Below are positions 22,068-58,410 of a DNA stretch of 64,000 bases, piece after piece. The stretch's first letter is position 1. Every line of letters begins with the position of its first letter. The notes under the pieces are model-generated. The model was not told the origin of the DNA, did not search any database, and saw only the letters and a program-made list of their open reading frames with translations. Origin of the DNA: Selenomonadales bacterium (lineage in GTDB: Bacteria; Bacillota; Negativicutes; Sporomusales; UBA7701). The stretch spans positions 1-64,000 of the forward strand of contig JARKNV010000012.1 in the NCBI GenBank assembly GCA_029976065.1, written 5' to 3'. The translations under genes and the position numbers were made by a program.

Positions 22068-23375
22068 TTAATTATTAACCCTCAAATTGACGAATTTCGG
22101 TGCGACGAGTTCCGGCAGTTTCAGGGAGACAGAAACGCTAAACGTCCGTTGATCGAAGGAGATCAGGCACTGCCCCTGGTATTTGGCGGCCAGGGTTTTC
22201 ACGCTTGCAAGGCCGATACCGTCGCCGGTACTTCTTTTTGAAGAAATAAATCCGCCGGGCTGATACTGCAGGTGGCCGTTAAACGAATTTGCAGTTTTAA
22301 TTACAAGATAGCCTTTGGCTAATATAGCCTTTATATCGATAAATCGCGCTTCGGAGCCTGTCATTTTATCACAGGCTTCGATGGCGTTTTCCAGGCAGTT
22401 GCCGATAATGACGCACAGGTCCAGATCATCAATGCCCAGATTATCAGGGATATTTAGATTAACGTTGACATCAATGGCTTGTTGCTTGGCCAGTTTTAAG
22501 TAGTGGCAGATGAGCGCGTCGGCGGACTGGTTGCGGCATACGGTGGGAATATGGCTGTCATCGTAGTTATTGCAGAGCTTGTTCAGATATTCTTGGGCCG
22601 CTGCCGCCTCTTTTTTGCCTAAGAACTCCGAGATTGTCACCAGATGATGGCGCAAGTCGTGGCGGGTTGCTTTGGCGGCAGTGATGCTGTCGCTTAGATT
22701 GCGATAATGATCGCGCTGCAGGGCCAGCTGCTTCTCCAGCAACTGCTGGCGCTTGGTCCTGTCGATGGATATGGCGATCAGGTAATAAGCAATGGAAATG
22801 ATGATGGTCGATAATACGAGGGGAATGAAAATGGACAGCAAGTAGGTTCTTTGTACCGCGTAGAAAGCGAGCAATATGAAGGATAGGAACGGAAACATTG
22901 TAAAAATGGGATTCTGGAGATTGATGATCTCGAGGATGTTTCTGACATGGGGTGTGATATGTTTTCTTATTAGCGGTATAGATGCCAGTTCCAGCAGTTG
23001 GCCTGCCAAAACTAAACCGCCCACCATATGGCCAAAGACTATTTGCTCTAGAAACAGAGCGATAAGAAAGTTAAACAGGGATAACGAAGTGACCATGAAT
23101 AGCACAAAAAATTTAGCATTAAGCGTTTCTTTGAAAATCAGGGCAATGGGAACAAAATACAATATGGTCAGCATGTGGCCGATTAAGAAGGTGTCGAGAC
23201 CTGTGGGCGTCAAAAGGAGGCGCGCAAGGTACTGGGCAACCCATGTACCGGCATAGGCGATAATTTGAAACCAAAGAGGCCGCTTGGGAGTTAAGAAGGA
23301 GTAAGTAAGCCAAATATTCGAGATAAGGAAGATTGCCCGGCTTATATTGATTAAAAGCAGGGTGGAATCTGCCAT
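22068..23375 (-). CDS. GHKL-domain (AgrC-like) membrane sensor histidine kinase
   Basis: 435 residues. About six membrane segments occupy residues 1-200, a coiled helix 205-235, and the phosphoacceptor region RHDLRHHLVTISEFL has H239. The ATPase part has the N box NCLENAIEACD and G box GDGIGLASVKTLAAKYQG. This is the AgrC/LytS-type kinase class, whose partners are LytTR response regulators. The only LytTR regulator in the window is at 33098-33817, about 10 kb away. GGAGGAAATC precedes the ATG. It probably senses an extracellular signal; no peptide-pheromone gene was recognised. Confidence 0.87.
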   Translation of the reverse strand: MADSTLLLINISRAIFLISNIWLTYSFLTPKRPLWFQIIAYAGTWVAQYLARLLLTPTGLDTFLIGHMLTILYFVPIALIFKETLNAKFFVLFMVTSLSLFNFLIALFLEQIVFGHMVGGLVLAGQLLELASIPLIRKHITPHVRNILEIINLQNPIFTMFPFLSFILLAFYAVQRTYLLSIFIPLVLSTIIISIAYYLIAISIDRTKRQQLLEKQLALQRDHYRNLSDSITAAKATRHDLRHHLVTISEFLGKKEAAAAQEYLNKLCNNYDDSHIPTVCRNQSADALICHYLKLAKQQAIDVNVNLNIPDNLGIDDLDLCVIIGNCLENAIEACDKMTGSEARFIDIKAILAKGYLVIKTANSFNGHLQYQPGGFISSKRSTGDGIGLASVKTLAAKYQGQCLISFDQRTFSVSVSLKLPELVAPKFVNLRVNN

Positions 23376-23438
23376 ATGATTTCCTCCATTGAAGAAGATT
23401 AATATAGTTAACGCTTAGTTAAATAGAAGCGGGTTGCC

Positions 23439-23476
23439 ATGGACCATGCGACGACAGGACGCATGGTCCATTATTT
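23439..23476 (+). terminator. Orphan terminator-like hairpin upstream of the LytTR-type promoter
   Basis: Perfect 12-bp arms ATGGACCATGCG and CGCATGGTCCAT with a 9-base loop, then TATTTT. No plus-strand gene precedes it. The same sequence context follows the response regulator gene at 33832-33867, so it may be a copied piece of that terminator. Confidence 0.5.
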
Positions 23477-23480
23477 TCGT

Positions 23481-23547
23481 CAATTTTCCTCAAAAACCTG
23501 CAAATTTTTCCTGGTGGAATGATACATTCCTGACGGGTTTGTATAAT
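23481..23547 (+). promoter_or_regulatory. Putative LytTR-regulated promoter (site 1)
   Basis: CAATTTTCC (23481-23489) is followed by AAATTTTTCC ending at 23511, with the TTTTCC cores 22 bp apart. A TATAAT -10 box lies at 23542-23547, 30 bp downstream. LytTR-domain regulators such as AgrA bind paired direct repeats of this spacing next to the -35 region. It would drive the 23654-27308 operon. Confidence 0.6.
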
Positions 23548-23653
23548 GTTCGCGAGGAGTAAACGTGCTGAGCAGGCTATTGACCGACTATATGAAAATG
23601 CCGCCGGAGGAATTGGAAGGCTTCCCGGCAGGCAATAAGAAGGAGAATGGTTT

Positions 23654-25369
23654 ATGAAAAGATTATCCAGACGGACATTCATCAAAACCGGTCTGGCCGG
23701 GGCGGCGCTGGTGGCGTGCGGCGCGCTTCTTCCCGGCGCCAAGTGGCTGCTTCGCCCGGTGGGGGCCGCACCGGGTTTCCAGACAACGGTCGAGCGTACG
23801 ATCGTTCCCGTTCCCGTGCCGGCCGCTGCGCCGAAGATTCTGCCGTCAGAGGCCGCTAAATACGCCCAGTATGGCTACAGCGCCTGGCGGTTCGCCGAAG
23901 GGCTCGGTTATGAAAAGCGGTTGGACCTCATGCCCGCCGCGTACACCGGCAAAGCGGTCACTAAGACGGCAAAGCTTTTGCGGTTCTTTACGATAGCCGA
24001 CATCCATATCTCCGACAAGGAAACTCCTGCCCAAGCGGTTTTTTACGGCTACAAAGGCGGGGTTTCCTCGGGATATTCGCCGGTTATGCTGTATACCACC
24101 CATGTTCTGGACGCCGCCGTCCGGACGATCAACGAGATTCATAAGCAAAATCCCCTTGATTTCGGAATCTCCCTGGGCGACACCTGCAACAGCACGCAGT
24201 ACAACGAGCTGCGCTGGTATGTCGATGTGCTCGACGGCCGGGTCATCACCCCGAGCTCGGGTAATCACGCCGGCGCCGCTACCATCGATTATCAGAAACC
24301 TTACAAGGCGGCGGGGCTTGACAAGTCCATCCCCTGGTATCAGACGCTCGGTAACCACGATCATTTCTGGATGGGGTTCATGCCGCCGAACGATTATATT
24401 CGCCAGAGTCTCGTCGGCGAGGAAATAGTCAACCTGGGCAATCTGTTCGCCGATCCCCGCGGCCTTGACAGCCGGGGTTTTTACATGGGCGCGATCGACG
24501 GGTCGACGCCTTATGGGGAGGTTATCGGCGCAGGCCCGGCCAAAGATTTTCCGATTCCCCCGAAGGTGGCGGCCGCCGATCCGGACCGCCGCTCGCTTTC
24601 GAAAAAGGAGTGGATGGGCGAATTTTTTAAAACGTCCTCCAAGCCGGTCGGCCACGGTTTCAGCCAGGCCAACGTCGATAAAGATTTTGCCTGTTACAGC
24701 TTCGAACCGAAGGCGGGGCTGCCGGTCAAGGTCATCGTGCTCGACGATACCCAAAGGAACGACGACCCCAACAATCCCGCTTCTCTCGGCTACGGGCACT
24801 GCTCTGTCGACAAGGAACGCTATGTCTGGCTGGTGAGCGAGCTTGAAAAGGGCCAGGCTGAAGGCAAGCTTATGATTATCGCCGCTCACATCCCGATCGG
24901 CGTCGAAGCGGGGAATTCCATGATGGCTTGGAGCAAAGACGCTTATGTGTCGGAGGGAGAGTTCTTTGCCAAGCTTCACGAATACCCGAATCTCGTCGCG
25001 TGGGTAGCGGGCCATCGCCATATCAATACAGTCACCGCGTTTGCGTCGCCTGATCCGGACCGTCCCGAACTCGGCTTCTGGCAGGTCGAAACCGCGTCGC
25101 TGCGTGATTTCCCCCAACAGTTGCGCACGTTCGAGATCGTCCGCAACAGCGATAATACGATTTCGATTTTTGTAACCAACATCAATCCGACCGTCGAAGA
25201 GGGATCGCCGGCGGCGATATCGCGCGCTTATGCTGTCGGGGCTCAGCAGGTATTCAACAATAAGCTGCCTTTTCTGCCTTCCGGAGCGTACAATGCCGAG
25301 CTTGTCAAGCAATTGAGCCCGGAAATGCAGGCGAAGCTTCAAGGCTGCGGCACGCCGATGCAAGTATGA
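23654..25369 (+). CDS. Tat-exported calcineurin-like metallophosphoesterase
   Basis: 571 residues. The Tat signal SRRTFIKTG is followed by a hydrophobic stretch and Ala-rich cleavage region (1-40). Metallophosphoesterase motifs appear in order: ADIHIS (D-x-H), GDTCNS (GD), GNHDHF (GNHD), AAHIPI and AGHRHINT (GHxH). It resembles the large TAT-dependent phosphoesterase group known as TIGR03768. It should act in the periplasm on a phosphate ester not identified here. GAAGGAG precedes the ATG. It overlaps the next gene by four bases and heads an operon of three exported proteins. Confidence 0.87.
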
Positions 25370-26295
25370 GGCGAATGCTCTTTGCTGTTCTCCTACTGGC
25401 GTGCTGCCTGATGCCGGGGATGCGGACGGCCCAGGCCACGGAAGGCGCCTCAAGCCATTACTTCCCCGGTTCTTCGACCACCTTCGCCGTCGCCGTGCCG
25501 CCTGCTCCCGGATTCATGGCGGTCAGCCAGATGTTGTATTACAGCGGGAAGGCCAGCACGGCCGTACTGCGAGGCCATGTCCATCTGGATCTGAAAGCCG
25601 ATGCTTTTTACGATTATATCGGGGGCTTCTACACATTCGATAAGCCCGTACTCGGCAGCCGGCTGCAGATAGGTATGGCTGTTCCCGTGGGGCATATGGG
25701 CGTACGCGCGAATGCCGGGACGCCTTTCCATACCATCAAGGCAGCGGACAGCAAGACCGATATCGGCGATGCGATGATTTCGGCCGCCTTGTATTGGGGG
25801 AAAGGCGATTTCCATTATAAGCTTGTCGAGTCGGTCTTTGTTCCGACAGGCGGGTACGCTGCCGGCAACCTCGCCAGCGTCGGCAGGAACTACTGGAGTT
25901 TTGACACCTCCTTGGCCATAACGTGGCTGAATGCCAAGACAGGGACCGAAATCTCCGTCACCCCCGGCATCATGTTCAACACGACGAACTCCGTCACTAA
26001 TTACAAGTCGGGGAATGAGTTCCACGTCGACTTCGTGGCGAACCAATTCTTTACGCCCAATTTTGCCGTGGGTCTCCACGGCTATTACTACCGCCAAGTG
26101 TCGGGTGACAGCGGCAGGGGCGCCGTGCTCGGCAGCTTCGCGGGCGAGTCTTCCGGTATTGGGCCGGCCCTTCTGTGGACGCCCAAGGCTGGCAAGGGGA
26201 AGCTTTCGGTGATCGCCAAGTGGATCCACGACCTCAGCCAGAAGAACCGCCTGCACGGCGATTACGGGCAACTTACCGTAGGATATAAGTTCTGA
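25366..26295 (+). CDS. Outer-membrane beta-barrel protein, phenol-degradation MetA-type
   Basis: 309 residues. A signal peptide ends near QATEG (residues 24-27). The remainder is alternating beta strands and ends in Phe (GQLTVGYKF), as outer-membrane barrels do. The pattern ([50 protein letters not shown]) is that of the Phenol_MetA_deg family, probable channels for small organic compounds. The start ATG overlaps the previous stop (ATGA), so translation is probably coupled. It shows the organism has an outer membrane. Confidence 0.8.
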
Positions 26296-26312
26296 GTGTA
26301 AGGAGAAGAGTT

Positions 26313-27308
26313 ATGAAGAATATGGTTGTGAAGAGCCTTCTTGTCCTGCTGCTGCTTGCAAACACGGCCTTTGCCGCCGCGCCTGCCGATCCGCTGCCAT
26401 CCTGGAACGACACCGCCACCAAGAAGGCAATCGTCACCTTTGTCGGGGAAGTGACCCGGCCGGGTTCGCCGCGCTTTGTCCCGGCCGCGGAGCGTATCGC
26501 CGCCTTCGACAATGACGGTACGCTGTGGGCCGAGCAGCCGATGTATTTCCCGGAAGCTTTTGTGTTCGACCGTATCAGGGCGCTGGCGCCGCAGCACCCC
26601 GAATGGCAGGGTAAACAGCCGTTCAAGGCTGTGTTGGCGGGCGATCTGAAGACGATTTATGCCGGCGGCGATCAGACCTTGCTCGAACTTATTAACGCCA
26701 CGCATGACGGCTACACCACGGAAGAGTTCGCCCAAACCGTCAAGGACTGGGCGGCAACGGCCAGGCATCCGATAAGCGGTCGATTGTATACGGAAATGGC
26801 TTATCGACCCATGCGCGAATTGCTTGATTACTTGCGGGCCAACGGGTTTAAGACCTTCATCGTGTCCGGAGGCTGGGCCGATTTCATGCGCCCCTGGACG
26901 GAAAGGGTCTATGGCATCCCTCCCGAGCAGGTAATCGGCAGCAGTAACAAGACGGAGTTCAAGCTGCGCGACGGCAAGCCGGTGATCGTATTTTTACCGG
27001 CGATCGGTTTCATAGATGACGGTGCGGGCAAAGCGATCGGCATCGAACGGTACATCGGCCGCCGTCCCATCGCCGCCTTCGGCAATTCTGACGGCGATCT
27101 GCAAATGCTCCAGTGGACGATGGACGGCGAAGGCGCGCGGTTCGCGCTTCTCGTCCACCACACCGACGCCGAACGCGAATGGGCCTATGACCGCGCATCC
27201 TCCTTCGGCCGCCTTGATAAGGCGCTGGACGAAGCGCTGGCGAAAGGTTGGACGGTTGTCGATATGAAGGAGGATTGGAAGAGCATCTACGTGTTCGAGA
27301 AGAGGTAA
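26313..27308 (+). CDS. Periplasmic HAD-family phosphatase
   Basis: 331 residues. A Sec signal peptide covers residues 1-22 (ending NTAFAAAP). The HAD motif I is AAFDNDGTLW with nucleophile D66 and acid D68. Motif II is TFIVSGG, and the late motifs are IGFIDDGAGK and AAFGNSDGDLQML. This is the exported HAD class that dephosphorylates small phosphate esters. It is third in the operon with the Tat phosphoesterase and the barrel, pointing to phosphate release or recycling outside the inner membrane. Confidence 0.85.
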   Translation: MKNMVVKSLLVLLLLANTAFAAAPADPLPSWNDTATKKAIVTFVGEVTRPGSPRFVPAAERIAAFDNDGTLWAEQPMYFPEAFVFDRIRALAPQHPEWQGKQPFKAVLAGDLKTIYAGGDQTLLELINATHDGYTTEEFAQTVKDWAATARHPISGRLYTEMAYRPMRELLDYLRANGFKTFIVSGGWADFMRPWTERVYGIPPEQVIGSSNKTEFKLRDGKPVIVFLPAIGFIDDGAGKAIGIERYIGRRPIAAFGNSDGDLQMLQWTMDGEGARFALLVHHTDAEREWAYDRASSFGRLDKALDEALAKGWTVVDMKEDWKSIYVFEKR

Positions 27309-27340
27309 CGAATTTACAACTATAGGGTTGCCGTTTTTGC

Positions 27341-27407
27341 CAATTTTCCCGAAAATATTGCAGAAGTTCCTTGTCGTGATGAAAGAACCAAGCTGCTAAT
27401 ATAGAAT
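27341..27407 (+). promoter_or_regulatory. Putative LytTR-regulated promoter (site 2)
   Basis: CAATTTTCC (27341-27349) and GAAGTTCC ending at 27370 have their TTCC cores 21 bp apart. TATAGAAT begins at 27400, 29 bp downstream, the same geometry as at 23481 and 33870. It lies before the secreted protein at 27495. Confidence 0.55.
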
Positions 27408-27494
27408 GAAACCAGTTACCGTAATTTGTCAAATAGCGCCGATGATTGTATGACTGAAGGCCGCGAGGCAATAAAACTCAAGGAGGAATAAGCG

Positions 27495-29015
27495 ATGATT
27501 TTTTCTGGGGGAACTATGTTTAGAATTGCCCTGTCACTGATTCTGGCGCTTAGTGTTTTATCAGGTCCCGTGGCGGCGGCGGATGGCCAGGCGCCCACAC
27601 CGCCAACGGCGACGTCGGTGGCGCTGAACACTTATGGAAGTTTACCGATGGTCGTTTTAAATTTGACGCAATCGCCGATAAATATGAACCTTTCGTTCAA
27701 TGCCCCGAACGGCTACGCGACAACGGGCTGGCCGGTATCTCTGCCCATAGCTGCAGGGCTGCCGGGAGTTTATTATCTCAATGGCACTCAAACGGCTACG
27801 TTTGCCAATATCCTTACGCCAAATCTCACTCCTTCGAATAACGGCAATTTCTCGCTGAACCCGATAGCTACTTTGGATTCGCAAAACAATGCCACCTTTA
27901 GCAAGAATTCTGGCTGGGCGAGTATGTTCACCGTTTTTCCCTCCTGGACCTTAAGTGGAATGCACAAGCAAGTCCAGTTCGTGAAACTGGGCAACGAGCT
28001 CAATAATCAGGGAGCAGCAGCCTACAACTCCGAAGTGCTCACCGGCTATCCCAGCAGCAATGCCAAAAACATCACTTCAAACACGGGTGCTGTGAGCGCG
28101 AATGTTCTCAATGCGGGACAGGCTGCTACCGCCACCCTAAAGATGAACCTGCTGAATCCAAACGGAACAGTGCAGGCCGCTTATGACATTAATATCAATA
28201 GCTTAGGCGGGGGCACGTCCGGCAGCGTTGCCATCCCCCAGTCGGGGTTCTCGATATTGCATGCTTTGCATACTGCGGCTGATATCCTGGCCGATGGCAA
28301 GACGGCAATAGAAGGCGACCCGCTGGCGATAATCGATTTAATCGACGGCATAGGGGAAACAGTTGACGGAATCGTCACCGCTGTTTCCAATGCCAATAGT
28401 ACGAATGTCAATGTTACCACCGACAAGGCTTATCCGGCAACATCCAAGGGAATCAACGTCACGGCCAAGGCGGATGCTGCCAGCTTCCCCAGCGGGGCGA
28501 CCCTCACCGCCTATGCGGGCGACAGCCAGTCGCTGATGTATGAGGTTCAAGGCCCTGCCAACCAGCAGCTGCCGCTGACCCAGCAAAACGCCGTATTCGT
28601 CACCACCTGGCGGCAGTCACCACAAAACAATTATGGGATAAATTTGCCGAACGGCGCGGATATACTGTTCGTCGTCGTGCTGAATCAGGGCGTTTACGCC
28701 TCGAACCAGGTGCAGCAGTATATCAATAATAATGCCCCGACGCAAATGGCAGGCGGCGCCAAATACCAGCCTACCAAGGCCCAGGCCCAGGAATCGGCAA
28801 AAATTCTCGAGATTATGACGGCGATTGCCAAGAAGAATCCGCAGGATGCGAAACTGATTATCGAGCTTTTCGGCGTTCGCGGCAAGCACGACCAGGTGAA
28901 GAATGACCCCGCCGCGATGAAGAACCTGGGTGTTCAGTTAAAAACCGTTTTGGAAAAATATAAAAATGAGCTGCCGGCTGTCGGGCAATACCTCACAAAA
29001 CTGGCCCAGAAATAA
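27495..29015 (+). CDS. Secreted protein of unknown function
   Basis: 506 residues. A signal peptide (about 1-29, ending GPVAAADG) precedes a mature protein rich in Asn, Thr, Ala and Gly, with no recognised motif. Its middle contains ILHALHTAADILADGKTAIEG and a helical DLIDGIGETVDGIVTAV. The C-terminus is helical and basic (KILEIMTAIAKKNPQDAKLI...LKTVLEKYKNELP). AAGGAGGAA precedes the ATG. A possible N-terminal remnant of a paralogue lies at 38128-38268. It is followed after 35 bases by another unknown secreted protein, so the two are probably co-expressed. Confidence 0.72.
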   Translation: MIFSGGTMFRIALSLILALSVLSGPVAAADGQAPTPPTATSVALNTYGSLPMVVLNLTQSPINMNLSFNAPNGYATTGWPVSLPIAAGLPGVYYLNGTQTATFANILTPNLTPSNNGNFSLNPIATLDSQNNATFSKNSGWASMFTVFPSWTLSGMHKQVQFVKLGNELNNQGAAAYNSEVLTGYPSSNAKNITSNTGAVSANVLNAGQAATATLKMNLLNPNGTVQAAYDININSLGGGTSGSVAIPQSGFSILHALHTAADILADGKTAIEGDPLAIIDLIDGIGETVDGIVTAVSNANSTNVNVTTDKAYPATSKGINVTAKADAASFPSGATLTAYAGDSQSLMYEVQGPANQQLPLTQQNAVFVTTWRQSPQNNYGINLPNGADILFVVVLNQGVYASNQVQQYINNNAPTQMAGGAKYQPTKAQAQESAKILEIMTAIAKKNPQDAKLIIELFGVRGKHDQVKNDPAAMKNLGVQLKTVLEKYKNELPAVGQYLTKLAQK

Positions 29016-29050
29016 TCAGGGAAAATAAACGATAAAGCGAGGAAACGCCA

Positions 29051-29998
29051 ATGTTAAAAAGAAAAATCCTGCTTTGTTCGCTGGTGTTGCTGCTGACGGT
29101 ATTGGGCAGCGCGGCTTTTGCCGCCGCTCCCGCCGCCCCCTATGCCAACATAATCGCCTATAATGAAATGGCTCCGGGATGGCCGAATACAAAGAGTAAT
29201 CCAGAAGTCTCCCCACTGGGCGTGCTGGATATCATCAACATGACACCCTGGGATATATCGATTGGTTCCGGGCTGGGTAAACCCATGCTTACCGGGATGA
29301 CAACCGGGTCGTTTAACGGGTTCTGGCTGGCCGGCATTCACAAGCCAACCGCCAACGCCAACAATTTCGGCGGCAGCGCCGCCTATCATTCCTATCAGGT
29401 GGCGCTGAACAATCTGAACAACGGCTGGGCGCTGAAAAACGAGGTGAAATCCGGTTACTCGCAGCCACTGTGGTACGATTCGGTACCGCTCGTATTTAAC
29501 AGCAATACTTTTGCCCAGGGCGGAAATACCGCGGCCCTGGATTTTATCGTTACCTCCAGTGTGGGGTTTGACACGCCTTATGCAGGGAATACCGAGAACT
29601 ATGCGGCAACCGCCCTCAGCTTCGGCGACGGCACCAATAATTACGGCTTCGAAACCCACGACACCATGGTCTACGCCAACAACTGGAAAAACACGACGCA
29701 TTTCCTTATGATTCAGGGGCTGGGGACAAATGCCAATAGCTGGAAGCCGATAGTCAAAAACCTCGGTGGATTTTGGAACATTCAACCAGGCGCGGACGGC
29801 TCCGCAAAAGGCACACCAGTGCCGATGCCGGCCTATCTGAATGTTTCCGGCCTGGCTTATCCTAATTTTTCGGCCGTGGCCGGCGGTGCGCCAGGGCTTG
29901 ATTTGGTTGTTATTATCCAGGCCGGCGGTTATGCCGATATGCAGCTCATATTCCTGGCGGTGCCGAGCAGCAACAACGGTTTCTTAAAAGGGCTGTAA
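29051..29998 (+). CDS. Secreted protein of unknown function
   Basis: 315 residues with a clean signal peptide (1-25, ending AAFAAAP). The mature part is rich in Asn, Gly, Tyr and Trp and probably all beta (TPWDISIGSGLGKPMLTGMT, KPTANANNFGGSAAYHSYQV). It shows no known motif. The pattern could fit an extracellular beta-sandwich or sugar-binding protein, but that is only an impression. It shares style and position with the previous gene. Confidence 0.7.
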   Translation: MLKRKILLCSLVLLLTVLGSAAFAAAPAAPYANIIAYNEMAPGWPNTKSNPEVSPLGVLDIINMTPWDISIGSGLGKPMLTGMTTGSFNGFWLAGIHKPTANANNFGGSAAYHSYQVALNNLNNGWALKNEVKSGYSQPLWYDSVPLVFNSNTFAQGGNTAALDFIVTSSVGFDTPYAGNTENYAATALSFGDGTNNYGFETHDTMVYANNWKNTTHFLMIQGLGTNANSWKPIVKNLGGFWNIQPGADGSAKGTPVPMPAYLNVSGLAYPNFSAVAGGAPGLDLVVIIQAGGYADMQLIFLAVPSSNNGFLKGL

Positions 29999-30023
29999 TC
30001 GCAGAGCAGCAGCCGAAAAGCCG

Positions 30024-30076
30024 ATTTGCCAACACAGGTTCCGCTCCGCTGGTGAGGGAACGCTGTGTTGGCAAAT
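30024..30076. other. Long intergenic stem-loop before the second phosphoesterase
   Basis: Perfect 14-bp arms ATTTGCCAACACAG (30024-30037) and CTGTGTTGGCAAAT (30063-30076) are extended inward by GTTCC/GGAAC. There is no T-tract, so it is not a typical terminator. It may control read-through or mRNA stability between 29998 and 30116. Confidence 0.5.
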
Positions 30077-30115
30077 TGCCGTACCCGGAGATATGTGCAG
30101 AAGAGGGGAAGTTAC

Positions 30116-31207
30116 ATGGCTAATAATCAATCCTTGTGGGAGTTGCTGCAACAGCGAGAGTTGCCCCGGCGCAGTTTTATCAAAACATGCGTTGCCATGA
30201 CCGGGTTATTGGGGGCGTCGCCGGCTATGCTGCCGAAGGTCATCGCGCAGGCGGAAACAAGCCCCGGTACGGAAAACGCGCAAATCTGGACATTCGCCAT
30301 GATCAGCGATACCCATGATAGTAACATGGTAAGCACCAAGACCGGGGTTACCGCTTATCTGACGCCCGTCATAAATTATATTGTCGACGAACAGCCTGAT
30401 TTCGTTTTACAAACAGGCGATTTGGTCACCGGAGCGCATACGCTGATGACTTCACCGGCGTTTAGACAATATGATATGCAATATGCCGCTTATAAGCAGG
30501 TAACCGCCCTTCTGGGCCGCGCGAATATCCCTTTATTCGCGATCCGCGGCAACCACGATTATGGCCTCCATAATGAAGATGCGGCATTGAACAAGGCGTA
30601 TATGGCGGAAATAGCCGGCAGTATGCCGAAAAACGGCCCGCCGGAGGCAACCGGATTATCCTACAGTTTCGTTCACAATAAAATAAAGTTCATTATGCTC
30701 GACCAATACGTTAATGCGGCCAACGGCATCGTCACCCTGCCCATGGAGTGGCTAAAGAGCGAACTGCAAAACAGGCAAGGGGTGGACCATATCTTCGTCA
30801 TGGGCCATAGCCCGGCTTTTACGCCCGATATTACCGCGAGCGCCAAAATAGCGCAATTTAATCTGTTTGACCAGACTAGCCTGCGCGATCAATTTTGGAA
30901 ACTGCTGACCGATAATCGTGTGACCGCTTACCTTTCCGGGCACGAGCATCTTTACTTCCGCGGCATGGTTGACAGGCTGCCGCAAATCGTTATCGGCGAC
31001 TTGGGGTCAAGCGCCGGCTATAATCCGGCTACCGTGGACAGGCGGATGGCGGGTGTGTTGCCGACGACTCCCGTACCGCAGGCGGAGTGCCGGCCCGGGT
31101 ATGGCATTTTCACGGTGGACGGCAGCAAGCATTCGATTGCGGTCACGGTGTACTTGTTGGATCAGAATAACAAGAAGTATGTTTATGACACGTATTTGCT
31201 AAGTTGA
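30116..31207 (+). CDS. Tat-exported calcineurin-like metallophosphoesterase (second copy)
   Basis: 363 residues. A Tat-type signal PRRSFIKTC lies at residues 17-25, followed by a hydrophobic segment and cleavage near IAQAE. Metallophosphoesterase motifs are ISDTHDSN, QTGDLV, RGNHDYG, MGHSPAF and SGHEHLYF. It is only distantly similar to the 23654 protein and much shorter, so it is a second enzyme type and not a recent duplicate. The ATG at 30116 is chosen because AGAGGGGAAG precedes it. It is co-directional and close (10 bases) to the next membrane-protein gene. Confidence 0.87.
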   Translation: MANNQSLWELLQQRELPRRSFIKTCVAMTGLLGASPAMLPKVIAQAETSPGTENAQIWTFAMISDTHDSNMVSTKTGVTAYLTPVINYIVDEQPDFVLQTGDLVTGAHTLMTSPAFRQYDMQYAAYKQVTALLGRANIPLFAIRGNHDYGLHNEDAALNKAYMAEIAGSMPKNGPPEATGLSYSFVHNKIKFIMLDQYVNAANGIVTLPMEWLKSELQNRQGVDHIFVMGHSPAFTPDITASAKIAQFNLFDQTSLRDQFWKLLTDNRVTAYLSGHEHLYFRGMVDRLPQIVIGDLGSSAGYNPATVDRRMAGVLPTTPVPQAECRPGYGIFTVDGSKHSIAVTVYLLDQNNKKYVYDTYLLS

Positions 31208-31217
31208 AGGAGTAATT

Positions 31218-31778
31218 ATGCAGCACACGGTGGCAATCATCATAATAGTCGTGCTGGCGGTGCTCAGAGTTTACCGGCATGCCCGGGGTGAACTCGGATT
31301 CCGGAAGTTCGCGAAATGGCGCGCGTTTTTGAGAATAGCGCTGATGACCGGTCTGGGGGTTGGTTTGCTGGCCGCCGGGTACGCGAATCCTGTGCGGTAC
31401 ATCTTCGATGGTCTCGGCATTTTGGCAGGGTCTATTATTGCCTGTTATTCGCTGCGCACGTCGGTGTTCGAGTGGCGTGGCAACGACTGGTTCTACCGCC
31501 AGAATCAATGGATCGGCAAGTGCATGCTTGTACTGCTCGCCGGCCGCATCGTCCACAAAGGCTATGAGGATATCGTCGCCCTGGTCAGTGCGGCTGCCAA
31601 TGGGCCATTCACGCAGAATGTACCGTTGGCCGAGTATACGCGCGACCCGTCTTTAACGGGTATTATGTATTTAGTGATCGCATACTACATTGTCTTCTAT
31701 ACGCTCCTCATTCGGAAGGAGCAACAGATGGCGCTTATGGAAAGAGTGCCGGATGCCGGTCAGAACCGGTGCCAGTAG
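31218..31778 (+). CDS. Multi-pass membrane protein, possibly CcdC/DUF1453-like
   Basis: 186 residues with four or more hydrophobic segments (about 3-16, 41-57, 64-80, 100-116, 143-163). The stretch GFRKFAKWRAFLRIALM and later YSLRTSVFEWRGNDWFYRQNQWIG recall CcdC-type proteins, but I am not certain. GAAGGAGTAATT precedes the ATG. The C-terminal end overlaps tail-to-tail with the minus-strand barrel gene by 19 bases. Confidence 0.6.
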   Translation: MQHTVAIIIIVVLAVLRVYRHARGELGFRKFAKWRAFLRIALMTGLGVGLLAAGYANPVRYIFDGLGILAGSIIACYSLRTSVFEWRGNDWFYRQNQWIGKCMLVLLAGRIVHKGYEDIVALVSAAANGPFTQNVPLAEYTRDPSLTGIMYLVIAYYIVFYTLLIRKEQQMALMERVPDAGQNRCQ

Positions 31779-32887
31779 GTGATACGCGCGAATCTTTCGG
31801 GATAAGGACCCGGGCCATAGATTTGGTAAAGAGCGGATGGGAATTCGTAGCGGCCGGACTTATAATACACCTCCACCATTTCCTGCTTGTTGATGGAGTG
31901 CTGGAAGTTGATGTAGTGCGCCCTGGGGGCCAGAGTGGACATTCCGGTCCCCGCCAGAAAGGGGACGGAAATAAGTCCGACTTTCAGGACATTATTGCGA
32001 TCCATTTTATACGCGAGCTGATAAACGGACGACTTGATCGTGCCGGCAGGAAAGGTGGCCAACACCGGCGCCGGCAGACCGCTGACGAAGGGATCGTTCT
32101 TTGTCCAGGCGACTTCGCAGGCAAAGCTGACCTTCGGCACAATATTTTCGTAACTGAGGTTCACTTCGGTGTAGTTGGCGGTTTTAGAACCCCAGTTGAG
32201 GGCGGCGTCGGCGTTGTTTTTATAGGCGTAGTATGCGCCGACAGTTATGTTTTTGTCAGCCGCATAATAGACGCCCGCGGACCATACCTTATTCCGATAA
32301 TTTCTTGGGGTGTTGTTGTCGACCTGACTGGCATACAAACCTTTATAAGTCATTTTGCCTTGTTTGGTTGACATGCTGACACCGTAAACATTCGAATCGC
32401 CGACCGTCAGCGTGGTATCGGCCAACATTCCCAGGGGACCCAGCTTCAAATCCTGGCGGCCGATTTTCGCGTTGGTGGCCCGATTGGCGTACGACAGGCC
32501 ATACATGTCGAGATAGCTTACCCACTTGTCGCCGCCCTTGATATACCTCGACTGGTCGGCAGTGAAAACATTAGGGTGTTGGGCAAAATTCTGGTCGACC
32601 CGGGCATAGGCTGCCCAGTTCCGGTCAAGCTGCAGCCGCATATTAAGCCAGAGTGTTTCGTTAAAGTCGGTTTTATTTCTAACATATACGACTTTCTGGT
32701 TTTTGAAGAATTGGACCCGGTCCGGCAATGCGTCAAGTAGCCGGAAGTCAAGGACATAGAGACCTGTTATCTGCAGTTCGCGGGAAACCGGTGTCTCGTT
32801 ACCCGCAAAAGCTGGCCGGGCGAACAAACTACTGATTAGGGCCAAGCTAATCAGCATAACGCTGACGATCGTAGGTCTTTGAAGCAT
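31760..32887 (-). CDS. Outer-membrane porin-like beta-barrel
   Basis: 375 residues. A signal peptide ends near ARPAFAG (residues 23-29). The mature protein consists of short amphipathic strands and ends with Phe (RITYWHRF), the outer-membrane insertion signature. Strands such as WAAYARVDQNFAQHP, VGAYYAYKNNADAALNWG and HYINFQHSINKQEMVEVYYKSGRYEF are typical porin repeats. It is probably a general or phosphate-compound channel serving the exported phosphatases. It is transcribed divergently from the LytTR regulator. Confidence 0.77.
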   Translation of the reverse strand: MLQRPTIVSVMLISLALISSLFARPAFAGNETPVSRELQITGLYVLDFRLLDALPDRVQFFKNQKVVYVRNKTDFNETLWLNMRLQLDRNWAAYARVDQNFAQHPNVFTADQSRYIKGGDKWVSYLDMYGLSYANRATNAKIGRQDLKLGPLGMLADTTLTVGDSNVYGVSMSTKQGKMTYKGLYASQVDNNTPRNYRNKVWSAGVYYAADKNITVGAYYAYKNNADAALNWGSKTANYTEVNLSYENIVPKVSFACEVAWTKNDPFVSGLPAPVLATFPAGTIKSSVYQLAYKMDRNNVLKVGLISVPFLAGTGMSTLAPRAHYINFQHSINKQEMVEVYYKSGRYEFPSALYQIYGPGPYPERFARITYWHRF

Positions 32888-33097
32888 TTTTTCCCACCCT
32901 AATTGTTTCGATCAGTTTTTCGTTTTTCAGTGGCAAATATAGCAAGGAGAATGTGCTATGGCGGAATATTCGCAGCATGGCAGACAATTTAGGGCACATA
33001 TAGTACAATTATGGTAGTTTCCGGCATATTATCCTCGATTATCAGTCGCTTCGGAGACCGGGTGTGCGGATATTCCCGCAGGAGGGAGGAGAAGAAC

Positions 33098-33817
33098 ATT
33101 TTTGTCATCGCGGTATGCGACGATGATGGTGCCGACAGGACGGATATTTGCAAAGCTTTGGAGACCTATCTGCAAACCAGGGGCGTCGACGGGAAGGTAT
33201 TCGGTTATGACAGTGCCGAGAAGTTATATTCGGCGCTTGAGAGCAAAAAACTAAAGTTTGACATAATATTACTGGATATACTCATGGGCGACATGGATGG
33301 GATGACATGCGCGCGGTTGATCCGCCGGCAGGACAAGCTGGCTAGAATTGTTTTTTTAACCAGTTCCCCGGATTACGTTTATGATGGTTATGAGGTCAAC
33401 GCCACGGCTTATCTGTTAAAGCCGCTCGGTGCCGACAAACTGGCCGCGGTTTTGGACAAAACGATTGCCCAGGCAGAGGACGTGGCCAGAGAAAGCATCG
33501 CGATCACCAGCGGCGGTGCAATCCAAAGGATACCTATCAAGGATATCCTGTACGTGGAAAGCATGAAGAATAAGGTTATTATCGCCTTGGTCCAGGGCGA
33601 AAGGTTGAATGTCTACACTTCGCTGGACGGATTCGAGCAGGCCCATCGCTCGCCTATGTGGATAAGAGCTCATAAGAGCTATGTTGTCAATTTCTTGTAT
33701 ATCGAGCAGTACGCCAGCGACAGGTTTGTCCTGAGGGACGGCACGGTGATACCAATCAGCCGGGTCTATAAGGATAAAGCCCGAGAATGCTTTTTCACTC
33801 TTCTCCATAACCAATGA
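33098..33817 (+). CDS. LytTR-family response regulator
   Basis: 239 residues from an ATT start. The receiver domain (1-120) has the acidic pocket CDDD, phosphoacceptor D60 (LLDILMGDMDG), and the conserved Lys in YLLKPL. A LytTR DNA-binding domain follows (about 135-239: IPIKDILYVESMKNKVIIAL, MWIRAHKSYVVNFLYIE, ISRVYKDKARE). ATT at 33098 is preferred because the only strong ribosome site (AGGAGGGAGGAG, 33080-33091) is placed for it and the resulting MFVIAVCDDD is the usual family start. GTG at 33062 and ATG at 33011 are in-frame alternatives. The likely partner kinase is at 22068-23375. Confidence 0.85.
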   Translation: MFVIAVCDDDGADRTDICKALETYLQTRGVDGKVFGYDSAEKLYSALESKKLKFDIILLDILMGDMDGMTCARLIRRQDKLARIVFLTSSPDYVYDGYEVNATAYLLKPLGADKLAAVLDKTIAQAEDVARESIAITSGGAIQRIPIKDILYVESMKNKVIIALVQGERLNVYTSLDGFEQAHRSPMWIRAHKSYVVNFLYIEQYASDRFVLRDGTVIPISRVYKDKARECFFTLLHNQ

Positions 33818-33831
33818 GGAAAGTTAGTGCA

Positions 33832-33867
33832 GGCCATGTGTCACACGACGCATGGCCCTTTTATTTC
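33832..33867 (+). terminator. Terminator of the LytTR regulator gene
   Basis: Arms GGCCATG (33832-33838) and CATGGCC (33851-33857) are followed by CTTTTATTT. The sequence around it resembles that at 23439-23480. Confidence 0.65.
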
Positions 33868-33869
33868 GT

Positions 33870-33935
33870 CAATTTTCCCTAAAAACCTGCTCCTTTTCCC
33901 GGGGCGTTTGATAATTTATGGCTTTTTTTTATTAT
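33870..33935 (+). promoter_or_regulatory. Putative LytTR-regulated promoter (site 3)
   Basis: CAATTTTCC (33870-33878) and CCTTTTCC ending at 33899 have TTTTCC cores 21 bp apart. TATTAT at 33930-33935 begins 30 bp downstream of the second repeat, as at site 1. It precedes the DUF3089/secretin operon. Confidence 0.6.
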
Positions 33936-34020: not shown

Positions 34021-34995
34021 ATGAGCGCCAAGCAAGTAGTAATGATCGTGGTTTGGGCCAGCTTGTTCAGCATGATGGCAACGGCGCGGGCCGACGATAA
34101 TCAGGCCACCGATTATTCGAAACCGGAGCATTGGTTGTCTTTATCGGTGGTGATCGACAAGAAGGTGGATGTTTTCTACCTCTATCCGACTTCCTGGCAC
34201 AAGGTGTCTCCTGATGAGCCGGGCATCTGCAGCATCGAAAACCCGACGATGCTGGCCGGCGCAAAGGTATCCTACGGCAAGCAGGCCACCGCCTTCGCGC
34301 CGGTGGGGAATGTGTACGCGCCGTACTACCGGCAAATTGACTTATCGCCGGTCGACCGGGAAAAACGCGTCGGCGGCATACCGACCCAGGACGCGGTGGC
34401 GGCCTTCGACTATTATATCAAGCACTTCAACCGCGGCCGCCCGTTCATCTTGGCCGGGCATTCCCAGGGCTCGAACGTGCTCTGCAACCTGCTGGCCGGC
34501 TACCTGAAGGATCATCCGGAGGTGTACGCCAGGATGATTGCCGCTTATGTCATCGGTTATTCGGTCACCGAGTCGTACCTTGCCGCGAATCCGCATCTGA
34601 AGTTCGCCGCGGGACCGGACGACACGGGCGTGATTGTTTCCTACAACACGGAGGCGCCGGATGTCGCCGCCGGCACCAATCCGGTTACGTTGCCCGGCGG
34701 CATCGCCATAAACCCGATTACCTGGACCAGGGACGAGACCCCGGCGCCGGCTGCGGAAAACATGGGCTCAATAATGCCCGCCGGCGGCGTGTTTGTACCG
34801 GTAATGAATTATGCCGACGCCAGAGTGGACAAAACCAAAGGCGTGGTGATCTGCAGCACCGCCGACGAGGACAAGCTATCCCCGCCGCTGGCAGAGTTGA
34901 GAGGCGTCTACCACAGCTACGACTATCCTTTCTATTACTACAATATTCGGCAAAACGCCGCGAACAGGGTCGAACATTTCTGGAACAAGCGATGA
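34021..34995 (+). CDS. Exported DUF3089 alpha/beta-hydrolase
   Basis: 324 residues. A signal peptide lies at 1-25 (ending TARADDN). The nucleophile elbow is AGHSQGSNV, and the DUF3089 hallmarks VDVFYLYPTSW, AFAPVGNVYAPYYRQ and QDAVAAFDYYIKHFNRGRPFILAGHSQG are present. The family is lipase/esterase-like and its substrates are unknown. The ribosome site GGAGGAGGCGGGAA precedes the ATG. It is first of the operon behind LytTR site 3. Confidence 0.85.
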   Translation: MSAKQVVMIVVWASLFSMMATARADDNQATDYSKPEHWLSLSVVIDKKVDVFYLYPTSWHKVSPDEPGICSIENPTMLAGAKVSYGKQATAFAPVGNVYAPYYRQIDLSPVDREKRVGGIPTQDAVAAFDYYIKHFNRGRPFILAGHSQGSNVLCNLLAGYLKDHPEVYARMIAAYVIGYSVTESYLAANPHLKFAAGPDDTGVIVSYNTEAPDVAAGTNPVTLPGGIAINPITWTRDETPAPAAENMGSIMPAGGVFVPVMNYADARVDKTKGVVICSTADEDKLSPPLAELRGVYHSYDYPFYYYNIRQNAANRVEHFWNKR

Positions 34996-35075
34996 GGAAA
35001 CCTTTTGCCGGAGACCAGCGCAGGCCTTGCACTGACGCTGCGGGTCGGCGACACAATTCGGGGAGTAGGTAATTT

Positions 35076-36242
35076 ATGAGGTTGCCGTTGGCCCAAAAGA
35101 TTGTTCGAGTTTATGCTGCTGCGAGCGTGCTGTTTTTCTTGAGCGTTGGCGGGATTGCGCTTGCCGAGCCCGCCGGCGCCGCTGACCCTGCCGGAGCTCC
35201 TGCGGAGGCGCTGGCCGCCGATGTCGCCGGTTATCGTCTGGTCAACGGCGTCGTTATTCTGCCGATAATGCCCGGCAATGAGACGGTTGTTCAGGGGCTT
35301 TTGCCGTCGCTGGCCCAGGATCCGGATTTTCAGGGGATCAGTATGACCTTGTTTACTCCGGTCGGGACAAAACCGCGGATTTTGCTGTCAGGCAATCAGG
35401 GTGAAGACAGGCTTCGGTATGCGGCCGAGAAACTGAAGACCATCATAAGCAAGCTGGGCAAGCCCCACCGCTTGGTGGTTGCCGCCTACTTGCGGGAGAT
35501 AACGATTGAAAATGACGATACGGCGGGCCTGTCGTGGTTTCCCAATGGCGTGCAGGGCGGTCTGACTACGGGGATAACGACGGCGTATACCAGGCAATGG
35601 AATAGCAATGGGGGGACGCCCCCCAGCTTGAATAAGCAGCCCACGATAACGAAGAGCACCAGCGGTTACACGGTCGGACTGACTAATCCGGCAAATGTGA
35701 CAGCGAGCCTGACGAAAGCGATGTCGAAGGGCAAGGTCATTGTCGGCAGCGAGATCAACATTGTCAATGGCACCACGGCCGAGATCAAGAATGATGATTC
35801 GATGCCTGTTCCCCTAACTTCGAATGGCGTCGTTACCTTCAATACCCAGGTTATCAGCAGTGATGTAAAGATAACGCCGACAATAGTGAAGTTTAACGCC
35901 GACAAACCGGAGGAAAGCATTGTCCGCCTCGACGTAGTCGTGCAGCTGAGCGTGCCTACGGATACGGTGACCTTCAGCGGCGGTTCTTCAGCCCTGCAAT
36001 ATACCGTGCAAACGTTAACTTCCACTCTCTATACGAAGGCCAATAACGAAAGGATTATCGGCGGGCTGTTCGCGAGCGATGCCTGGATCAAATCCACCAG
36101 CGGCATTCCGATATTGATGAATGTTCCGATAGTGAAGTATTTGTTTTCTTCCCAAACGGTCAGCCTGCAGCATTCGGCGTCGATTCTGACCCTCGCGGTC
36201 CGCATTCTGCCAGTAACCAAGGGAGATGGTTATGATTATTGA
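35076..36242 (+). CDS. Compact secretin-domain protein (paralogue 1)
   Basis: 388 residues. A signal peptide is followed by one small N-type domain (about 52-130: VILPIMPGNETVVQGL, ILLSGNQGEDRLRYAAEKLKTI). Then comes the whole secretin domain: RLVVAAYLREITIEND, KVIVGSEINIVNGTTAEI, SSDVKITPTIVKF, ERIIGGLFASD, GIPILMNVPIVKYLFSSQTV and LTLAVRILP. PilQ and GspD have two or more N domains and 550-700 residues. No type II, III or IV pilus genes are nearby. It probably forms an outer-membrane channel; alone or with its paralogue is unknown. Confidence 0.8.
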   Translation: MRLPLAQKIVRVYAAASVLFFLSVGGIALAEPAGAADPAGAPAEALAADVAGYRLVNGVVILPIMPGNETVVQGLLPSLAQDPDFQGISMTLFTPVGTKPRILLSGNQGEDRLRYAAEKLKTIISKLGKPHRLVVAAYLREITIENDDTAGLSWFPNGVQGGLTTGITTAYTRQWNSNGGTPPSLNKQPTITKSTSGYTVGLTNPANVTASLTKAMSKGKVIVGSEINIVNGTTAEIKNDDSMPVPLTSNGVVTFNTQVISSDVKITPTIVKFNADKPEESIVRLDVVVQLSVPTDTVTFSGGSSALQYTVQTLTSTLYTKANNERIIGGLFASDAWIKSTSGIPILMNVPIVKYLFSSQTVSLQHSASILTLAVRILPVTKGDGYDY

Positions 36243-37350
36243 CAGATACACCGGCCGGGTCGTCACTAAAATGCTGCTGATGGCGGCGGCAGCGTTGCTG
36301 CTCATCGGCGCATATGCCCCCCCGGCTTACGCCGAAGGCGATAACGCGGACATAGCGGTGGAAAATGGCACGGTAATGCTGCCGGTGGTGCACGGCAACG
36401 CGCCGGCGGTGACCAACCTGCTGACCTACCTGCAGCAAATGCCGGAGTTTACGGGCATGTCGGTGTCGCTGTTGCAGCCGAAGGGCGCCCCGGCGATGGT
36501 GCTGCTGTCAGGGGCGGATGAATCTCAACTGCGAAGCGCGGCCGCCAAGCTGCAGACGCTGCTGGCGGAAGTGGGCCGGCCGCACTTGCTGATAATTTCC
36601 GCCTATCTGCGCGAGCTGGATATGACTAATAACCAGTCGACAGGTATCGACTGGTCGTCGCTCACCGGCAATATGACTTACGGCGTCAGTTCGTGGCAGC
36701 GTTCGGTCGGCGGCAGTACCCATCAATTTTTTCCCAATATAGGGCAGTGGGTGAAGACGGTGCAGGGGTCGGTCACCGATACACTGACGGCAGGGGTGCC
36801 GGCGCCGACGAGCGGCGCGATGGGCTTCAACGCCCAACTGACAAAATCACTGTCCAAGAGCAGGGTCATCATGGGCAGCAATGTGTACACGCCCAACGGC
36901 ATTCAAGGCGAATTGCTCAGTCAAACGGTCGTGCCGCTGCAGACGACCGACAGCAACGGGAATGCAACCCTGACCTCGCAGACGATCAGCAGCGATGTAA
37001 AAATTACTCCCACCATCGTGAAATATGATGCCGATAAGCCGGCCGAAAGCGTCGTCAAGCTTGATGTATACATGCAGATGGCGCTGGTTACCGGCAGTGT
37101 CCAGGTAGGGCAGCAGTCTGCCAAAGAATTTTCCACCAAGACGCTGACGACCACCGGGCTCGTCAGCGCTGACAGCAGCGTCTATGTCGCCGGTGTTTTC
37201 GCCGGCGACACCGAAACGCGGTCGGTCAACGGCATCCCGATATTGATGAAGATACCCTTTCTTAAGTATTTATTCAGCCAGGAAACTAAGCAATTGACCC
37301 ATAAGGTCGGCGTGCTGACCGTTTCGGTACGCATTCTGCCGGAGCAGTAG
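36232..37350 (+). CDS. Compact secretin-domain protein (paralogue 2)
   Basis: 372 residues. It is collinear with the preceding gene through the N-type domain (VMLPVVHGNAPAVTNLL, MVLLSGADESQLRSAAAKLQTL) and the secretin domain (HLLIISAYLRELDM, SSDVKITPTIVKYDADKPAES, GIPILMKIPFLKYLFSQET, LTVSVRILPEQ). The ATG at 36232 is chosen because AAGGGAGAT precedes it; an ATG at 36226 is inside this site. It overlaps paralogue 1 by 11 bases, so the two are translationally coupled. Sequence divergence shows an old duplication, which would suit a hetero-oligomeric channel. Confidence 0.8.
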   Translation: MIIDRYTGRVVTKMLLMAAAALLLIGAYAPPAYAEGDNADIAVENGTVMLPVVHGNAPAVTNLLTYLQQMPEFTGMSVSLLQPKGAPAMVLLSGADESQLRSAAAKLQTLLAEVGRPHLLIISAYLRELDMTNNQSTGIDWSSLTGNMTYGVSSWQRSVGGSTHQFFPNIGQWVKTVQGSVTDTLTAGVPAPTSGAMGFNAQLTKSLSKSRVIMGSNVYTPNGIQGELLSQTVVPLQTTDSNGNATLTSQTISSDVKITPTIVKYDADKPAESVVKLDVYMQMALVTGSVQVGQQSAKEFSTKTLTTTGLVSADSSVYVAGVFAGDTETRSVNGIPILMKIPFLKYLFSQETKQLTHKVGVLTVSVRILPEQ

Positions 37351-37386
37351 ACCTGTATTTACGCCTACATGAGCGGGGGTAAGAGG

Positions 37387-38079
37387 ATGCCTGTGACAAA
37401 ATGGTTTAAGCGAGACTGGCGTTTGCTGTTGGCTGTCGCCGCAATGGTTGCCGTTATTGTCTGCGGCTTGGCGGCCCAGGGTGTTTATGCAGCGGAGAAG
37501 GGGCAGGAGGAGCAAAAAAAGGTTTTGCCGCCTACCCTGGCCGTGACGCTTGAGGACGAGGACGGTCAGCCGATCAGCGGCGTTGAGGTTCATGCCATGC
37601 CAGGCAATCTGGCCGGCAAGGAGAAAGCGCGGGCCCGGACGGATGAAAAAGGTAAAGCGGTGTTCAAGCATTTAAAGAGCGGCGCGTATTATTTCTACGC
37701 CAATGTCGCAGCGCTCCGCAGCCATGATGGATACGATTTCCCGGCGATAATCAAGGAGACCAAAAGCTATGTCTCCCACTATATTTCGGAGACCAAACGG
37801 TTCGATCTCAGTGAAGACGCCGAGTGCACCTTGACGATCAAAAGAAGCAACTATATCATGCTCGAAACTTTTCTCGACGTGTATAAACCCGACAAAATCG
37901 TGCTGATGAGCAAAAAGCGGGGCGTCGGCCAGAACATCGCCATAGGATCGAACGACTTTATCCAGCTTTATCTGCCGATGGGCGAGAAGTATCAGATGGT
38001 TACGGTTAAGGACGGCGATTTCGATTCGTGGATTATCGAATTTTATGCCCATGAACGGCTGCGCATCGAGCTGCTGTAG
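37387..38079 (+). CDS. Exported protein with carboxypeptidase-regulatory-like Ig fold
   Basis: 230 residues. A membrane segment or signal peptide lies near 9-34. Residues 45-100 have the CarboxypepD_reg pattern (LAVTLEDEDGQPISGVEVHAM, ARTDEKGKAVFKHLKSGAYYF), a beta-sandwich seen in many surface proteins. The rest is unassigned. ATG at 37387 has GGGGGTAAG upstream; ATG at 37369 has none. It is the last intact gene of the DUF3089/secretin operon and may be an accessory periplasmic or surface component. Confidence 0.65.
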   Translation: MPVTKWFKRDWRLLLAVAAMVAVIVCGLAAQGVYAAEKGQEEQKKVLPPTLAVTLEDEDGQPISGVEVHAMPGNLAGKEKARARTDEKGKAVFKHLKSGAYYFYANVAALRSHDGYDFPAIIKETKSYVSHYISETKRFDLSEDAECTLTIKRSNYIMLETFLDVYKPDKIVLMSKKRGVGQNIAIGSNDFIQLYLPMGEKYQMVTVKDGDFDSWIIEFYAHERLRIELL

Positions 38080-58112: not shown

Positions 58113-58214
58113 AGGCTGGCGGGCAGTGACTTTGTGAAATAAAGATTTTATTGCCGGGCGCAGGAAAACAACGGCCGGCAGCGAACGGATTCATTAGCAT
58201 AATATTGGGAATGA

Positions 58215-58410
58215 AGGCCGCGGGAGAGACCGCGCGGGCGGCGCCGAAGGAGTAAAACCTTTGTCAAACTCTCAGGCAAAAGGACCATGGCCGGACCAGA
58301 CTCTGGAGAGTGCGCCATCGGGCGCCGCCGAAGGAGAACCCTCACGGGTGAATCTCTCAGGTAAAAAGGACAGAGACAAAGGAGCGACGCTCTTTTGCCT
58401 CTGCTTTTTT
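58215..58410 (+). promoter_or_regulatory. Tandem glycine riboswitch controlling the gcv operon
   Basis: Two aptamers are recognisable by their conserved cores. The first runs from GGAGAGACC (58223) through CGCCGAAGGAG and CTCTCAGGCAAAAGGAC. The second runs from CTCTGGAGAG (58301) through CGCCGAAGGAG and TCTCAGGTAAAAAGGACAGAG (to 58375). The expression platform is a terminator stem (58371-58403) followed by seven T. It precedes gcvT by 140 bases, in which I see nothing else. Confidence 0.95.

Follow-up and report, generated by a model that had tools for sequence, protein, structure and literature searches.

Three direct-repeat elements, W1, W2, and W3, lie in a 64,000-nucleotide stretch of DNA from a Selenomonadales bacterium (contig JARKNV010000012.1, positions 1 to 64,000; hereafter the window), each a few bases ahead of a promoter-like sequence. 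Judging from sequence comparisons, we consider these elements very probably to be the operators of the neighbouring two-component system, which comprises a response regulator with a LytTR domain and, as its proposed partner, a GHKL membrane histidine kinase. The repeat-promoter arrangement itself is real and far above chance. The sites, their promoters, and the proposed regulatory pair are as follows.

23481..23511, + strand: site W1, direct repeat CAATTTTCC / AATTTTTCC, period 22, spacer 13 bp; 106 bp from the start codon of the divergent kinase gene
27341..27370, + strand: site W2, direct repeat, period 21, spacer 12 bp; no stable hairpin before it
33870..33899, + strand: site W3, direct repeat, period 21, spacer 12 bp
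23519..23547, + strand: W1 promoter, ATGATA-17-TATAAT (consensus scan)
27379..27407, + strand: W2 promoter, ATGAAA-17-TAGAAT (consensus scan)
33908..33935, + strand: W3 promoter, TTGATA-16-TATTAT (consensus scan)
33098..33817, + strand: LytTR response regulator (receiver and LytTR domains), the proposed binding protein; PF04397, E 8.6e-16
22068..23375, - strand: GHKL (HATPase_c_5) membrane histidine kinase, the proposed partner; domain match and tblastn

The repeat unit in the three sites is 9 bp long and in direct orientation. Copy 1 is CAATTTTCC at 23481, 27341, and 33870, exactly where the initial annotation had placed it, and copy 2 has its terminal TTCC at 23511, 27370, and 33899. The same annotation described a second TTCC-containing copy 21-22 bp further on, in agreement with the measured periods of 22, 21, and 21 bp, and a -10 box 29-30 bp past copy 2. 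The -10-like boxes (TATAAT at 23542, TAGAAT at 27402, and TATTAT at 33930) start 30, 31, and 30 bp past copy 2, so that this distance was correct to within one base. A weak -35 element begins 7, 8, and 8 bp past copy 2 in W1, W2, and W3, as placed by a consensus scan independent of the repeats. The LytTR promoters of S. mutans consist of two 9-bp repeats with a spacer mostly of 12 bp (11 or 13 bp in a minority), located 4-11 bp, with a bias to 10 bp, upstream of the -35 element (PMC6193735). The spacers of 13, 12, and 12 bp and the 7, 8, and 8 bp to the -35 element both fall within these published ranges, which supports the earlier interpretation of the sites as LytTR-type direct-repeat promoters.

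Chance as the origin of the three sites was rejected on pattern counts, simulations, and a held-out profile. The word CAATTTTCC is expected 0.8 times per 64 kb and is by itself weak evidence, and a loose two-part pattern with up to two mismatches matched three unrelated places as well. The full composite (copy 1, 17-18 bp, TTCC, 30-32 bp, TANNNT) occurs three times in the window, compared with none in 400 first-order Markov simulations. Because this composite was drawn up after the sites were seen, the held-out profile R1 is the fairer test. R1 was trained on eight sites from three relatives (A1-A3, M1, M2, and B1-B3), leaving out B4, the window sites, and C1/D1. Over the organism's own genome (3.42 Mb, 82 contigs, 88% complete), it ranked W1 first (E 1.8e-12), W3 second (1.4e-9), and W2 third (0.016), followed by the next match at 0.137. 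A matrix scan of the genome for many unrelated hits had been proposed as a check, and R1, blind to the window, places only W1-W3 at the top. The 21-mer CAATTTTCCNNNAAANNNTGC has exactly three occurrences in the whole genome, all in the window; its one-mismatch matches at C10:29383 and C35:157197 were rejected, being without a second copy or the rest of the pattern. A second profile, R2, used 16 training sites, the 17 of clade I described below minus B4 and with the window sites included. Its scan of the same genome returned no site below E 0.08 beyond W1-W3, and further regulon members elsewhere were rejected on this result, with the best 150 of 805 first-look candidates scored.

The anatomy of the operator was read from a set of 22 sites, 17 of clade I and five of clade II, with a second site in L035 and the site in G023:C62 left out. 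Over the clade I sites, the copy 1 word and the word found 21 bp later agree at 5.88 of 9 positions, compared with 2.71 in shuffles (sd 0.31; maximum 3.82 of 5000). The shift of 21 bp is the clear maximum of the self-match, and Pho-type 11-bp tandem repeats were rejected on this ground, though the match at shift 12 is not negligible. A guanine stands at positions -2 and +19 in all 17 sites, indicating that the repeat is longer than nine bases, with a unit of at least GY-N3-TTTTCC in outline. The information content over the same sites is 1.50 bits per position in the spacer, 1.52 in copy 1, 0.98 in copy 2, and 0.48 in the downstream stretch, and three A's within the spacer, at positions 12-14 from the start of copy 1, are invariant. 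The best -10 match (4/6 or better) lies 29-32 bp downstream in 19 of the 22 sites, the misses being M2, B4, and C1, against a mean of 5.3 and a maximum of 11 in 2000 shuffles. In both the data and the shuffles, a tie was settled in favour of the tested gap, and the shuffle mean is higher for it.

The genes that the three sites would control fall into the following runs.

23654..27308, + strand: regulon unit 1, TIGR03768 metallophosphoesterase (mpe1), Phenol_MetA_deg outer-membrane protein, HAD phosphatase
27495..31778, + strand: regulon unit 2, 506-aa and 315-aa proteins (orf506 and orf315), second metallophosphoesterase (mpe2), hydrophobic 186-aa protein
34021..38079, + strand: regulon unit 3, DUF3089 protein, two secretin-domain proteins, CarboxypepD_reg-like protein

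Relatives were found via the regulator; their neighbourhoods were fetched, homologous genes mapped, and the gaps read. They carry the same genes in differently shuffled runs, and a matching site lies ahead of each run of targets. In G025:C3, the kinase and regulator genes are followed by one site and then by a single long run of mpe1, the outer-membrane protein, HAD, secretin, and CarboxypepD_reg-like protein genes, orf506, orf315, mpe2, and the membrane protein gene. The window has a run of this type split into three, with three sites. L010 also has three, before sec1, orf506, and DUF3089-mpe1, and Sporomusa malonica and G025:C9 have one site ahead of mpe1 and one ahead of the DUF3089 gene. 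In a diverged sub-clade, matching sites precede surface-protein genes. Since the same design recurs in relatives carrying the regulator gene, the sites are very probably the switch of that regulator.

Co-occurrence across the class points in the same direction. R1 sites with E<1e-6 were found in 7 of 380 class genomes, and six of these seven have the regulator (orthologue threshold E<=1e-50), compared with 11 of 380 overall (hypergeometric P 8e-10, uncorrected for relatedness). Without the three training genomes, three of four site genomes have the regulator, compared with 8 regulator genomes of 377 (P 2.5e-5, likewise uncorrected). L010 was taken as G096 and L011 as G011, each counted once in these tallies. 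In the class scans, the candidates scored in each genome were few (seven for the protein and 12 for R1, with stricter filters), so that absences there are soft. Five of the 11 regulator genomes have regulators 56-59% identical to that of the window, all without a strong R1 site. Four of these five (G023, G017, G105, and G112) carry a shifted site, CAATTTCACC, with an 11-bp spacer, downstream of the regulator gene; its outline is TTTCGCCAATTTCACC-AAAAA-CCTGC-NN-TTTTCC.

The regulator and the kinase had been called the sole LytTR regulator and GHKL kinase of the window, which holds: one of the four LytTR matches in the genome lies here, and tblastn within the window returned no second kinase resembling the GHKL kinase. 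They had also been said to flank the sites. This wording is loose: the kinase is left of all three sites, and W3 is on the right-hand side of the regulator. A simple hydropathy script finds six hydrophobic stretches in the kinase, which is of the multi-pass membrane type. A PDB sequence search with the regulator gave chiefly receiver domains, and ComE (4cbv) over residues 57-223, among the best 60 of 85 matches. No R1 or R2 site precedes the regulator gene in the organism's own genome, and no R1 match precedes it among the 20 different sources scanned. W1 and A1 sit between the kinase gene and a divergent target (mpe1 for W1), and a site of this type may have an effect on the kinase. At L098:4780-6015 (G013:C110), one protein joins the membrane sensor half of the kinase (residues 1-239, 52% identity) to a diguanylate cyclase domain of the GGDEF type, which replaces the GHKL domain.

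In the mechanism that we propose, the multi-pass GHKL kinase (22068-23375) would sense a signal and phosphorylate the LytTR regulator (33098-33817). A regulator dimer would occupy the two direct repeats, which are spaced by two helical turns and end 7-8 bp short of the weak -35 element, and the bound regulator would bring RNA polymerase to the three envelope and export gene runs. The conserved A-run of the spacer may aid DNA bending, a reasonable reading because AgrA is reported to bend DNA. The identity of the binder, activation, the signal, and the operon structure are what we infer here.

Several observations weigh against this assignment. W2 is clearly the weakest of the three sites and, at its R1 E-value, is not convincing standing alone. 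The genome has three LytTR matches outside the window. The self-match has secondary values of 4.5 and 4.4 of 9 at shifts 12 and 20, and the conservation of the spacer matches that of copy 1 and exceeds that of copy 2; both lie beyond a simple two-repeat model. The repeat core CA(A/G)TT, compared by eye, fits the broad LytTR consensus only in part. Among the relatives, G116 has the regulator and no convincing site was found in it, and an unlinked pair of mpe1 and outer-membrane protein genes in G023 is without a site. In G024, a stray orf506-orf315 pair is preceded by a strong site, yet the genome has no close regulator orthologue, only a LytTR-type regulator that is 27% identical, near a kinase that is 35% identical. 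B4 (L049:7115-7144, G025:C3) is a well-kept site upstream of a porin gene that points away from it, with no recognisable -10 box. Weak R1 matches (E 4e-4 to 9e-4) occur in six class genomes without the regulator (G013, G118, G205, G271, G280, and G289), compared with 0.4 predicted by rough E-values, and the stretches fetched from G013 and G271 contain none of the window's cluster genes.

Some of these observations would also fit true operators of another factor, either a different LytTR protein or an OmpR/PhoB-type protein reading 10-11 bp repeats, with the neighbouring regulator controlling something else. The further LytTR matches and the G024 site without an orthologue agree with this, as do the phosphatases among the targets, which are also seen in phosphate regulons, and a spacer weakly like a third repeat unit (3.5 and 4.5 of 9 at shifts 10 and 12, with no shuffle control at these shifts). 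We consider it unlikely, however, because a strong site occurs in only 1 of 369 class genomes without an orthologue, the linkage of the site to the kinase-regulator pair survives several rearrangements, the site changes along with the regulator in the 56-59% sub-clade, and the self-match peaks clearly at shift 21. Operators of the neighbouring two-component system remain our preferred reading of the sites.

The following features were found upstream of the sites.

33832..33857, + strand: terminator hairpin after the regulator gene, directly before W3; -20.7 kcal/mol
23439..23471, + strand: CCATG-type hairpin upstream of W1; -21.5 kcal/mol; no + strand gene directly before it
23416..23547, + strand: apparent scar of a regulator gene, aligning at 111/133 with L031, from the regulator stop codon through the hairpin and site to the -10 box

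By reading, a CCATG...CATGG-type hairpin followed by T-rich sequence stands directly before 13 of the 22 sites (W1, W3, A2, M1, M2, B1, B2, B3, H1, C1, D1, I1, and J1), six of which were folded. A3 and F2 have other hairpins, and W2, A1, B4, E1, F1, F3, and J2 have none directly before the site. Seven of the eight sites folded have a stable hairpin with T-rich sequence. The hairpin common to W1 and W3, together with the apparent origin of W1 as a leftover of an older regulator-site junction, would suit a recent duplication of a promoter stretch, in which the repeats have no regulatory role. This is very improbable, since the operator holds 1.0-1.5 bits per position over 17 sites against about 0.5 in the 30 bp downstream and 17 bp upstream, in other genomes the site stands ahead of other genes, and W2 is a diverged copy with the same geometry and no stable hairpin.

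At L081:9883-10051 (G024:C71), a LytTR-type site is followed by TATAAT and then by a c-di-GMP-I riboswitch, all ahead of the orf506/orf315 homologues. The -10 box is at L081:9949, 20 bp before the riboswitch start at 9969, which independently places the transcription start downstream of the operator. That the element acts as RNA, the hairpin and the following sequence forming a terminator or attenuator of the upstream gene, would agree with the stable hairpins and T-rich sequence at seven of eight folded sites, but is hardly credible, because the repeats, placed between the hairpin and the -10 box, are outside the leader, W2 lacks a stable hairpin, and the G024 riboswitch puts the start after the site.

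The hairpin at W1, to which a strict terminator scan gave no score, is probably the remnant of a regulator's terminator. The alignment of the scar with L031 points to an older order of kinase, regulator, site, and mpe1, from which the regulator gene would have left while its terminator and the site stayed; the opposite direction is also possible. The 17 bp at 23399-23415, which separate the flank on the kinase side from what is left of the regulator's stop codon, are unmatched and probably mark the junction of the rearrangement.

With a CCATG hairpin directly ahead of 13 of the 22 sites, the terminator may be copied together with operator and promoter as a single cassette. G017 has the hairpin-site module at a second place too, before the gene for an 884-aa protein, and other site targets are an inverse autotransporter (G112) and a TPS exoprotein (G111). 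The 884-aa protein and an 885-aa protein had no Pfam match and are autotransporter-like by reading only. At L130:3165-3239 (G023:C62), a hairpin, a diverged site, and TATAAT precede sequence that resembles, by reading, a LuxR-type helix-turn-helix. We tentatively raise the idea, which we hold to be somewhat less than probable, that the regulon grows by insertion of a cassette of CCATG hairpin terminator, LytTR operator, and weak promoter before new surface-protein genes, and that the circuit may be wired to cyclic di-GMP. The genes concerned would be metallophosphoesterases and secretins in one set and autotransporter-like, inverse-autotransporter, and TPS exoproteins in others. The wiring is suggested by the c-di-GMP-I riboswitch after one site and the fusion of the kinase sensor half to a diguanylate cyclase in one genome.

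The target genes of the window look like they share a theme of export, the outer membrane, and ester or phosphate hydrolysis, to judge from family names and N-termini. The 506- and 315-aa proteins (27495-29998) had no Pfam or NCBIfam match; their N-termini are signal-peptide-like by reading, and their homologues are paired in all four loci where they were seen (the window, G025, L010, and G024). The CarboxypepD_reg-like protein scores below the cut-off of that family. At 35076-37350, tandem short secretin-domain proteins (388 and 374 aa) adjoin the DUF3089 protein and score far below the PilQ, GspD, and YscC cut-offs. Elsewhere in the window, a glycine riboswitch aptamer (Rfam RF00504) lies at 58211-58297.

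Among known arrangements, the LytTR regulatory system (LRS) pairs a LytTR regulator with an inhibitory membrane protein and has no kinase or receiver domain, whereas the window regulator has a receiver domain and a linked kinase gene. The partner kinase of AgrA is of the GHKL type, and the repeat sequence of AgrA differs from the window repeats. The agr-type feature of a multi-pass GHKL kinase with a LytTR response regulator is present in the window; in contrast to agr, no AgrB and no autoregulatory site were found, and the targets are envelope and export genes. The AgrB family (PF04647) had no match in the organism's own 88% complete genome, in a search whose control matched in only 1 of 14 genomes, below the cut-off.

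S. aureus AgrA is reported to bind ahead of the P2/P3 promoters, which have suboptimal -35/-10 spacing, with a dimer on two direct repeats, and to bend the DNA (PMC4227749); the window shares the LytTR response regulator and the direct repeats before a promoter. HdrR/BrsR and other S. mutans LytTR promoters resemble the window in their 9-bp repeats, 11-13 bp spacer, and position a few bp before the -35 element, and their repeat sequences, likewise, are poorly conserved between systems (PMC6193735). In that description, HdrR/BrsR combine a regulator with an inhibitory membrane protein and autoactivate their own operon, whereas the window has a receiver domain, a GHKL kinase, no site before the regulator gene, and a conserved spacer. 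The RcoM/CoxC operators (PMC11347149) also contain evenly spaced LytTR direct repeats at the promoter, but in three 8-bp copies, TTCNNGCA for RcoM1 and TTNNNGCN for CoxC, the latter overlapping the -35 element and acting in repression.

Each element works like a LytTR promoter and very likely is one, and by the tests made the system is neither agr nor LRS. We regard it as a new regulon built on a known LytTR promoter type, unusual in its conserved spacer and in the apparent copying of a terminator-operator-promoter cassette. No earlier description of such a regulon appeared in titles or abstracts among the matches listed, which is no proof of absence. The class holding Sporomusa consists of bacteria that have an outer membrane. 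The sites provide a testable operator sequence for a LytTR two-component system of this class and point to the envelope genes that are probably controlled. The copying of a terminator-operator-promoter cassette would offer a plausible route of regulon growth, and the 56-59% sub-clade, in which regulator and site change in parallel, amounts to a natural experiment in DNA recognition by LytTR domains.

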